From assembly GCA_900105225.1 (NCBI GenBank), contig LT629764.1, positions 2,392,501 through 2,456,500 on the forward strand: 64,000 nucleotides of DNA, written 5' to 3'. Each line of letters starts with the position of its first letter. The stretch's first letter is position 1. Position numbers and translations under genes: made by a program. This DNA comes from Paenibacillaceae bacterium GAS479 (lineage in GTDB: Bacteria > Bacillota > Bacilli > Paenibacillales > Paenibacillaceae). The notes beneath the pieces are model-generated. The model saw nothing but the letters and a program-made list of their open reading frames with translations, was not told the DNA's origin and ran no database searches. This document shows positions 53,721-56,596 of the stretch, piece after piece.

Positions 53721-53769
53721 AAAAAAGGGGACCTCCCAAGTCATCGTTAAATGACTTGGGAGGTCCCCT
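53721..53769 (-). terminator. strong terminator after yabR
   Basis: GGGGACCTCCCAAGTCAT and its exact complement form an 18-bp stem around six bases, followed on the minus strand by six T residues. It begins 22 bases past the yabR stop codon. A diverged copy of its right arm lies at 53463-53492. Confidence 0.95.
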
Positions 53770-53790
53770 CCTTATTGCCAATGAAAAGAA

Positions 53791-54498: not shown

Positions 54499-54792
54499 TT
54501 ATTCCGATGGAGTAATCAGCTCTTCGCCGGGCTTAACTAGCCCCTGCTGCTTCGTCGCGAGCTGCGAAATATATTCCGGATCATTGAGCTGCTTAACCTT
54601 AGCCTTCAGCTCTTGGCTCTGCTTTTGCATCTGTTCCAACCGATCCTTGGCCACCGTCAGTCGCCCTTCGGTCTCCGCCTGGCGCTGCATCTGAGAGAAC
54701 AGGGTATACCCTGCCCACGCTAAAATAACCGTCATCGCCAATAGCCACAGCTTAAATCTTCTGCGCGCGCCCGTCGTGTTCGGACTTATCAT
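54499..54792 (-). CDS. divIC: cell division protein DivIC (FtsB-like)
   Basis: A bitopic division protein that works with FtsL and DivIB at the septum. From the ATG at 54792 it has 97 residues: a short basic cytoplasmic start (TTGARRRFKLW), one membrane segment (about 13-33) and a coiled coil (40-75; AKDRLEQMQKQSQELKAKVKQL) ending with the NDPEYISQLATKQQGLVKPGE motif typical of this family. GGGAGGA lies 11 bases upstream of the ATG. The frame is open to a TTG at 54849, but that has no such support. Confidence 0.92.
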   Translation of the reverse strand: MISPNTTGARRRFKLWLLAMTVILAWAGYTLFSQMQRQAETEGRLTVAKDRLEQMQKQSQELKAKVKQLNDPEYISQLATKQQGLVKPGEELITPSE

Positions 54793-54849
54793 CACGTGAA
54801 TCCTCCCGTCACTTCCAAGGTATGGCTTGAAGGACCGGAGCGAATCCAA

Positions 54850-55458
54850 TCACTTGCGGTAAATCCGCTTCCAAGCCTGGATAAACCCATTCGACACTCT
54901 CGCCGCTTTCTCCTGCACCTTCCAGCGAACGAGAAGCTGTCTGAGCTGCCTGTCCAATGGACGCAGCAGCGGGCCCAATATCCAGAGAAATAAAATTCCT
55001 AATGGACGAACTAATTGTAGCACAATCCGAAATAGGAAAATAGAAAACACCAAGAGAAACCCTGTCAAAACGCGAATCAATCGGTAGATTCCTATCACAG
55101 GACGAATAAGAAGCATGTCCGTCAAGCGAATGAGGAATTGAACGATCGCCCGCATGGCAACAATCAACCATTTGCTGAGCTTGATAACGGCACGGCTGAA
55201 CAGCAAATAATGCAGGCATATGCCGATCAGCAGCCCCAGGAAAACATACGCCCGCACCTCGCCCTCATTGCTGGCGTACAGCACCCGGAATACCGCGAGC
55301 GCAGTGATTACCCAGAACGCGATATCCAGCACCGGCATGATCCACCGGGGGAACCGCAGCTCATAGGATACAACGCGGTAGCCATCAAACGCAGTGCCCA
55401 TCAGCAGACCCGACAGCAGCATCATCGCCATCGTCCAGCCTTGGGTTTCCAGCGTCAC
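54850..55458 (-). CDS. yabQ: spore cortex protein YabQ
   Basis: A membrane protein needed for spore cortex formation, made in the mother cell. The 202 residues have about five hydrophobic segments (roughly 8-25, 38-58, 66-86, 108-128 and 135-158) and the start LETQGWTMAMMLLSGLLMGTAFDGYRVV typical of YabQ, with a basic C-terminal tail. It overlaps yabP by ATGA and is followed by divIC, the conserved yabPQ-divIC group. Confidence 0.92.
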   Translation of the reverse strand: MTLETQGWTMAMMLLSGLLMGTAFDGYRVVSYELRFPRWIMPVLDIAFWVITALAVFRVLYASNEGEVRAYVFLGLLIGICLHYLLFSRAVIKLSKWLIVAMRAIVQFLIRLTDMLLIRPVIGIYRLIRVLTGFLLVFSIFLFRIVLQLVRPLGILFLWILGPLLRPLDRQLRQLLVRWKVQEKAARVSNGFIQAWKRIYRK

Positions 55459-55739
55459 TTGAATAACTTCCCGAACAGGCCTTTAGGCTTGCCTGTCTGC
55501 GAACCGTCTAGATAGGCGAGGGAATGGACAAGCCCTTCAATTGCCACAAGACCTTGTTCCAGGCTCAGATGTTTCATATGCAGGTTCTGGCCCCGGATCG
55601 CCAGGAACCCAAGCTCGGTTTCGAGCAAGAACTCTTCATTATCAAAGCTTTCAACATTCAATACACCCGTTATCTCCAGCAACTTGCGGTTCAGCATTTT
55701 GACTTCCTGCCGCTTCTGCCCTTTCACAGGTTCACTCAT
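55455..55739 (-). CDS. yabP: sporulation protein YabP
   Basis: A 94-residue spore coat-associated protein, usually under sigma-E, required for YabG-independent late spore assembly. The sequence (QEVKMLNRKLLEITGVLNVESFDNEEFLLET, then LAIRGQNLHMKHLSLEQGLVAIEG) is that of the YabP/YqfC family. Its ATG follows AAGGAGGGG, but that ribosome binding site lies in one arm of a 46-nt hairpin. The gene overlaps yabQ. Confidence 0.95.
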   Translation of the reverse strand: MSEPVKGQKRQEVKMLNRKLLEITGVLNVESFDNEEFLLETELGFLAIRGQNLHMKHLSLEQGLVAIEGLVHSLAYLDGSQTGKPKGLFGKLFK

Positions 55740-55740
55740 A

Positions 55741-55786
55741 CCTCGTCCCCTCCTTATAAGCCTATGCTTATTAGGAGGGGACGAGG
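55741..55786 (-). promoter_or_regulatory. hairpin that covers the yabP ribosome binding site
   Basis: Two 21-base arms (55741-55761 and 55766-55786) pair at 20 positions around a 4-base loop; the single mismatch is T755 with T772. On the minus strand the arm nearest the gene contains AAGGAGGGGACGAGG, ending one base before the ATG. The far arm is its exact anti-Shine-Dalgarno complement. An RNA containing both arms would have the ribosome binding site fully paired. No T run follows, so it is not a terminator. Confidence 0.8.
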
Positions 55787-55995
55787 TTTAGAACCTATAG
55801 GAGTGGGGGGGTAAGCATCATTAACCACTCTATCGACAGATGAAACCATCCCTATTAACTATTTTAATAATGAATATCCAGGAATAGTACGACCCACTAG
55901 CTACTAAGTTATTCGATACATTCCAGAAAAAAGTCGGCATTCGTTTCATAAACTGCGGAATGGACACAAATACCCTTAGACTGGTACACCACTGC

Positions 55996-56177
55996 TAACG
56001 GAACTGAGAAGCCTTATTTGCGGAAAATGGACTCGCTTTCTGAGCTAACGGAAATGAGAAAGCTTATTAGACCCTTTCGCCTAAAAAAGTCGATATTAAT
56101 GGGGAATAACGCGTCTCAGTTCCGTTACACACTCAATCACATCCATTCCGACCAAATAGCGCTTCTCAGTTCCGTTA
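55996..56177. repeat. nested palindromic element, copy C
   Basis: A 182-base element with left arms at 55996 (TAACGGAACTGAGAAGCCTT) and 56046 (TAACGGAAATGAGAAAGCTT) and inverted right arms ending at 56127 and 56177 (CTCAGTTCCGTTA). The spacings of 50 bases on both sides equal those of copy A at 40427. It fills most of the yabP-rlbA interval and has no coding frame. Confidence 0.85.
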
Positions 56178-56245
56178 GGGAATCTCCGTTCCCTCCTCCG
56201 CTCAAACTTCAGCCGTTCTGTGAATGCAACATGAAGTATAGAAGA

Positions 56246-56280
56246 CAAAAAAAGCAAGGTCCACAGAGGGACCTTGCTTC
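56246..56280 (-). terminator. terminator after rlbA
   Basis: On the minus strand AAGCAAGGTCC and GGACCTTGCTT form an 11-bp stem around six bases, followed by TTTTTT. It ends the hbs-rlbA transcript. Confidence 0.93.
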
Positions 56281-56314
56281 TTATTTATGGAATCAGCAGA
56301 ACGTTGATTGTCGG

Positions 56315-56596
56315 CTAAAAGCCGAGCCCATTGTCCTCGCGTTCCCTTGATTCTTCCTTGACCAGCGTATAAAGCGTTGCCGCTTCATCCTTACGGGTGG
56401 TTTCAGCCGTGCGCTCGATACGAACGGTGACGTACTTCAACCCGTATTGGATACGCAGCTCGTCACCGGCTTTGACGGAGCTGCTCGGCTTGGCCTCGCG
56501 GCCATTAATCCATACGCGGCCCTGCTCCGACACATCCTTGGCGACAGTGCGCCGCTTGATGAGCCTGGAGACTTTAAGGAATTTGTCGAGCCTCAA
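56315..56596 (-). CDS. rlbA: S4-domain RNA-binding protein (RlbA/YabO/HslR-like)
   Basis: A 93-residue S4 protein; relatives bind stalled 50S-peptidyl-tRNA complexes. The start RLDKFLKVSRLIKRRTVAKDV and VWINGREAKPSSSVKAGDELRI are the S4 core. The initiation codon is TTG, directly abutting the hbs stop codon (TAATTG), so translation is probably coupled to hbs. In B. subtilis yabO lies between yabN and yabP, while hbs is elsewhere; here hbs is inserted before it. Confidence 0.94.
   Translation of the reverse strand: MRLDKFLKVSRLIKRRTVAKDVSEQGRVWINGREAKPSSSVKAGDELRIQYGLKYVTVRIERTAETTRKDEAATLYTLVKEESREREDNGLGF

Follow-up and report, generated by a model that had tools for sequence, protein, structure and literature searches.

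A near-perfect hairpin over the ribosome binding site of yabP in Paenibacillaceae bacterium GAS479 as a candidate translational insulator

In the mobile element IS10/Tn10, read-through RNA coming from outside promoters folds and hides the start of the transposase gene. In phage T4, the Shine-Dalgarno sequence (SD) of the lysozyme gene e and of I-TevI is hidden in a stem of the long early transcripts, and late transcripts, which start inside the stem and are without its 5' portion, are well translated; the effect of the gene e hairpin is about 100-fold, and in related phages the late promoter lies within the region encoding the 5' strand of the stem (excerpts of PMC3014915; this and the other articles cited are drawn on in part). 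For sigG of Bacillus subtilis, the available portion of PMC5942855 describes a hairpin of 20 or more pairs, which cannot form in RNA from sigG's own promoter and is proposed to stop read-through RNA from spoIIG being translated; the published ribosome binding site (RBS) hairpin of sigG occurs in Bacilli (PMC5942855). Here we describe a hairpin directly upstream of the sporulation gene yabP in a stretch of 64,000 nucleotides from contig LT629764.1 of Paenibacillaceae bacterium GAS479, hereafter called the window. A search of the literature by titles and abstract openings, with most subscription journals outside its coverage, found no earlier description of the yabP hairpin. Sporulation genes can lie inside growth-gene operons, and their silence under polymerase run-through has rarely been asked about.

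Position, stability and conservation of the hairpin

The gene, the hairpin and the parts of its arms are located as follows.

55455..55739, minus strand: yabP, sporulation protein YabP, 94 amino acids (TIGR02892, 98.3 bits, cut-off 75.4)
55740..55787, minus strand: near-perfect hairpin with a 4-nt loop and a stem paired at 21 of 22 positions (folding and inverted-repeat check)
55740..55755, minus strand: in the 3' arm of the hairpin, the SD AAGGAGGGG (55755-55747) and ACGAGGT as far as the ATG (read from the sequence)
55773..55787, minus strand: ACCTCGTCCCCTCCT, the outer stretch of the anti-SD (5') arm and at the same time nearly all of the putative promoter spacer (55773-55788)

The two arms (55740-55761 and 55766-55787), 22 nt each and 4 nt apart, are 95 % complementary, and on the minus strand the stem consists of 21 pairs and one A.A mismatch. 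An earlier sequence-only reading of this DNA had claimed 20 of 21 paired positions; the hairpin is indeed there and is one pair longer, the outermost pair 55740/55787 being added. The SD does lie inside the 3' arm, as had been proposed, and the arm adjoins the yabP ATG (55739-55737) directly. Upstream of yabP the minus strand reads GTTCTA-AACCTCGTCCCCTCCT-AATAAGCATAGGCTTATAAGGAGGGGACGAGGT-ATG.

The minimum free energy was -39.1 kcal/mol, against a mean of -14.8 kcal/mol for shuffled sequences (z -8.95, plus strand folded), and none of 200 shuffles was equally stable. Folding of the minus strand with its context (151 nt in all) retained the identical stem and showed an outer helix, GGUUC/GAACC, that encloses the AUG as well; the codons which this helix requires are changed in one member of the genus (L008). 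The hairpin had the lowest energy among the 226 sites of the window with an SD-like sequence and a start codon followed by at least 60 open codons, whether real genes or not. It was also the most stable among 65 distinct CCTCC...GGAGG...ATG sites folded from the genome, in which this pattern has 68 matches and the reversed control pattern 25.

Three other identities were considered and rejected. The hairpin is not a dispersed palindromic repeat, as it occurs at one genomic locus only, the second match being the palindrome read from the opposite strand; nor is it an intrinsic terminator, having no T run on either strand and being absent from the listed terminator-like sites. A known structured RNA family was likewise rejected, with no Rfam match at the gathering score in the window.

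Both yabP and the hairpin were found in all eight genomes of the genus, with hairpin energies from -22.9 to -39.3 kcal/mol. The arms are almost fixed and the loop is variable. In L002 the stem survives an arm change, which produces a G.U pair, and L008 retains the 13 outer pairs, with one G.U pair and one bulged base. Genus members with the hairpin include the culturable P. pasadenensis DSM 19293 (L033) and P. humicus (L032). The sequence-only reading had staked itself on the far (5') arm being present in close relatives, and it is there in each of the eight.

Promoter-like boxes and the predicted transcripts

yabP was present in 181 of 197 Paenibacillaceae genomes. In one genus of the family (g7) a yabP match was lacking in all 16 sampled genomes, and the three of these in which yqfC and sigG were looked for had neither yqfC nor a sigG above cut-off; this genus is probably non-sporulating. 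The upstream regions of 180 yabP loci were collected, of which 150 belong to the family; 19 of these were set aside because their upstream 90-mer duplicated that of another locus, which left 131 distinct regions. GTTCTA followed 14-18 nt downstream by a CATA- or AATA-type box was found in 126 of these, the other five being without the boxes, and the spacing was 16 in 105 of the 114 regions in which the pair was found within 150 nt. The family layout is a mostly C-rich spacer between the two boxes, with the SD downstream of the -10 box. By eye, several of the upstream regions of 30 loci from other families of the class (L113-L142) also show GTTCTA...CATA (uncounted). The corresponding sites in the window are:

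55789..55794, minus strand: GTTCTA, putative -35 box, sigma-E-like promoter (family conservation)
55765..55772, minus strand: AATAAGCA, degenerate candidate -10 box, 16 nt from the -35 box as in most of the family (score 2.6)
55759..55766, minus strand: CATAGGCT, alternative -10 box at a spacing of 22 (score 13.1)

By their sequence and placement the boxes are a putative sigma-E-like promoter of yabP, although GTTCTA has no clear match to the sigma-E -35 ATA motif reported in the excerpt of PMC3789822. Throughout the genome, GTTCTA-N13-19-CATANNNTA had four matches versus eight in the reversed control, and eight versus 13 when the second box began with M; with fewer matches than the control, the motif alone is uninformative genome-wide. 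The -10 boxes of the family scored 11.6 on average (minimum 1.6). AATAAGCA is preferred over the higher-scoring CATAGGCT because a start 6-7 nt past the latter would land inside the SD. The second box is wholly absent in L004.

The anti-SD arm coincides with the promoter spacer, and the -10 box precedes the SD. A transcript made from this promoter is therefore expected to be without the 5' arm, so that the hairpin could form solely in read-through RNA. For this genome, SD openness is predicted at 0.006 when the RNA reads through from upstream, at 0.33 when the spacer of such RNA is shuffled, and at 0.88 for a transcript that begins 6 nt beyond the -10 box. The family means (126 sequences) were 0.19 for read-through RNA, 0.74 for the own start and 0.31 for shuffled spacers.

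A start upstream of the hairpin would make it a dampener on the gene's own transcript, as with the small sigG RBS hairpin, with a helper (an RNase III-type cut, a protein or temperature) opening the stem. The upstream block CCCCCCACTCCTATAGGTTCTAAA, altered in L008 but kept in the other members of the genus, fits such a start, as does the degenerate -10 box. However, a stem of -39 kcal/mol would almost abolish translation, and a strengthened 5-pair sigG hairpin already gave very low expression in the work excerpted from PMC5942855. With the boxes straddling the 5' arm family-wide, and with the window empty of Rfam matches, we give a dampener hardly any chance.

Sigma-E controls yabPQ in B. subtilis, where the two genes are part of a longer yabMNOPQ-divIC-yabR operon whose divIC-yabR portion serves growth (PMC1925097, in part); they are also among the sigma-E genes required for cortex formation (PMC517825, in part). 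On balance we lean towards the hairpin being a translational insulator around the yabPQ promoter that silences read-through RNA. During sporulation, mother-cell RNA polymerase (with sigma-E in B. subtilis) would start the transcript downstream of the anti-SD arm, and this yabPQ transcript, with a short leader and an open SD, would be translated. RNA entering from upstream, either past the terminator-like site after yabO (see below) or from pervasive transcription, would carry both arms, which would fold into the 21-pair stem and hide the SD. In growing cells YabP would then not be made, nor YabQ if the two are translationally coupled.

Weighing the pairing of spacer and leader

The pairing was assessed in 80 representative yabP upstream regions, less than 80 % identical to each other. 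Without regard to promoters, bases -75 to -25 were paired against the last 24, giving a mean z of -1.74 for yabP (28 of 80 below -2). The comparison sets were 30 yqfC and 30 sigG loci, of which 29 and 24 were kept after removal of repeats. yqfC, a sigma-E-controlled paralogue of yabP, had no such pairing (mean z 0.04, 1 of 29 below -2), and the mean z for sigG was -2.32 (16 of 24 below -2). The start codon of sigG in Paenibacillaceae appears to be TTG, and four of the six leaders L293-L298 have GGAGATAATGAACATTAATGTTTCTCCTTGGGAGG in common, which is able to fold onto the SD. A separate site, L207 (G000:C1:888084-888138), at the start of an open reading frame of 306 amino acids, has its SD buried in a long stem that carries TTGTTCTAAAAT towards the loop and is possibly the same design with a different promoter type.

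Spacer and leader arms of the same representative paired at -15.71 kcal/mol, compared with -13.72 kcal/mol when permuted and -11.5 kcal/mol with shuffled spacers, and none of 20,000 permutations was as good. With the flank after the SD alone, 2 of 20,000 permutations were as good as the own pairing, and with the SpoIIID-like letters masked 11 of 20,000, in the 75 representatives left when the five with a spacer length other than 16 were set aside. These permutations ignore relatedness, so disjoint sister pairs give the better answer, and a weaker one. At a nucleotide distance of up to 0.25 the own arms were better in 23 of 44 pairs, the crossed arms in nine, and 12 were tied (sign test p 0.020, Wilcoxon 0.003). 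The sister-pair contrast is underpowered. Compensation is clear in L021, L145 and L086, which have GCGTCCCCTCCTT with AAGGAGGGGACGC versus CTCGTCCCCTCCT with AGGAGGGGACGAG in this genus, and in L108 (ACATCCCTC with GAGGGATGT); L086 is Paenibacillus sp. MMS18-CY102, from outside the genus. L058 and L147 are counter-cases, having the leader of L145 and yet having lost most of the matching spacer.

Several results weigh against insulation as a general reading. The -10 box of this genome, AATAAGCA, is degenerate, with AATA where most family regions have CATA, so that the transcription start site of yabP is uncertain. The hairpin is far weaker in much of Paenibacillaceae than here, and in the median case the spacer native to a genome comes only about 24th among the 80, with 23 others ahead of it. 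At sister-pair distances of up to 0.20 the contrast was 12 own, seven crossed and nine tied of 28 (sign test p 0.36, Wilcoxon 0.07); at up to 0.30 and 0.50 the sign test likewise failed, with 27/14/13 own/crossed/tied of 54 (p 0.06, Wilcoxon 0.008) and 30/18/13 of 61 (p 0.11, Wilcoxon 0.010). Full pairing of the SD core with the spacer was predicted for only 41 of 126 family folds, compared with 24-35 for shuffled spacers, so any block would be partial except in this genus and a small number of others. Downstream of yabO there is a terminator-like site, both here and in 75 of the 90 distinct intergenic regions compared across the family (a loose criterion of our own, without a null), which would lessen the need for an insulator at yabP; yabO was located upstream in 127 of the 180 yabP loci only, and these are the basis of the counts for gaps and terminators. 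Finally, the anti-SD spacer possibly holds an operator for SpoIIID.

The same results could be read as a by-product, with the stem of the genus arising functionless by drift or templated mutation, since some pairing is unavoidable between a C-rich promoter spacer and a G-rich SD. The counts of fully paired SD cores, the confinement of strong spacer-leader pairing to some clades of Paenibacillaceae and the non-significant contrast in the closest sister pairs are as this would have it. The arms kept in all eight genus members while the loop varies, the preference for own arms in all three permutation tests and the flat yqfC comparison are not, and we consider a mere by-product improbable.

The operator would act on DNA: the spacer arm would be a SpoIIID site shutting off the sigma-E promoter, the second arm a matching site or chance, and the RNA fold incidental. 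The spacer arm has CTCGTCC here and CTTGTCC or CCTGTCC in relatives (reverse complements GGACGAG, GGACAAG and GGACAGG), and of the 75 representative spacers 35 contain [CT]GTCC and seven contain GGAC. We take CTCGTCC in 55773-55787 to be SpoIIID-operator-like, one letter off the consensus. In B. subtilis, SpoIIID represses yabPQ, a yabP fragment is in the gel-shift list, and all 18 gene regions chosen for gel shifts were bound by SpoIIID, according to the portion available of PMC517825, in the text of which the consensus letters had no match. Masking these letters nevertheless left own arms better than permuted ones, and an operator leaves the anti-SD run beside the -10 box unexplained. As a replacement for insulation the operator is thus unlikely; as a co-existing function in the same spacer it is likely enough to keep, the two being compatible.

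Insulation of yabP from read-through, as the sequence-only reading had it, is therefore plausible and partly supported. Predicted SD burial and the conserved boxes speak for it; the degenerate -10 box, the terminator-like site and the weak family hairpins speak against it. Its claim of an occluded SD in read-through RNA agrees with the predicted openness, and its claim of a transcript starting past the 5' arm gains from the boxes that straddle this arm in 126 of 131 regions but is weakened by the poor -10 box here. More speculatively, and with considerable doubt, the 16-nt spacer of yabPQ may be triple-coded across Paenibacillaceae, perhaps more widely in sporulating Bacillota, setting the sigma-E box spacing, holding a SpoIIID operator and providing an anti-SD which insulates mother-cell genes between growth genes (yabO, divIC) from vegetative read-through, with spacer and leader compensating clade by clade. 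If true, yabP would be a further sporulation gene, after sigG, whose own promoter contains an anti-SD, and its 80 diverged promoter/leader pairs would be a natural series, from one gene, for constraints of promoter, operator and RNA structure that share few bases.

Gene neighbourhood and comparison with known systems

The genes and the terminator-like site around yabP are:

54850..55458, minus strand: yabQ, spore cortex protein (TIGR02893, above cut-off)
54499..54849, minus strand: divIC-like gene, named by position (FtsL/FtsB models below cut-offs)
56315..56596, minus strand: yabO-like gene, 575 nt upstream of yabP, named by position (Hsp15-type model below cut-off)
56249..56282, minus strand: terminator-like hairpin and T run in the yabO-yabP gap (terminator scan)

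yabR is also in the window (S1-domain model above cut-off), and 3' of it, at 53724-53771, is a 20-pair terminator-like hairpin with arms GGAGGGGACC. The 5 kb here contain six terminator-like sites, compared with an average of 6.1 in shuffles. A preprint, available in part, reports that at least 89 % of sporulating Bacillota have shfA, which we take as yabQ, beside divIC (PMC13232292).

The gap between yabO and yabP is 575 nt here, versus 213 and 237 nt in two genus members. Within it, at 55995-56178, four copies of the repeat TAACGGAAMTGAGAA lie at 50-nt spacing in an imperfect palindrome; the genome has 120 copies at up to one mismatch, and the reversed control none. The longer gap and these copies suggest an inserted repeat element, and the palindrome is probably an insertion like a miniature inverted-repeat transposable element (MITE).

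Among the known systems, IS10/Tn10 shares with yabP a start hidden in folded read-through RNA; it differs in being a mobile element, with arms that come from the element's end rather than from a promoter spacer. As in the T4 and sigG cases, the SD is paired in a stable stem within a long RNA, by prediction. The 5' arm is kept or compensated throughout the genus (8 of 8), to a modest extent only in the family. The yabP hairpin is a probable further case of the T4 gene e and B. subtilis sigG kind.

The parallel with T4 lysozyme drawn in the sequence-only reading is accurate as far as PMC3014915 is excerpted: the architecture is the same, with the own promoter, a putative one in yabP, inside the stem-encoding region. 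The T4 case has been tested experimentally and concerns phage late promoters, whereas that of yabP concerns a sporulation promoter and is known here from sequence. B. subtilis sigG (PMC5942855, in part) is the closer parallel, both being sporulation genes behind another operon with an SD hairpin proposed to be limited to read-through RNA; the read-through transcript is described for sigG and presumed for yabP.
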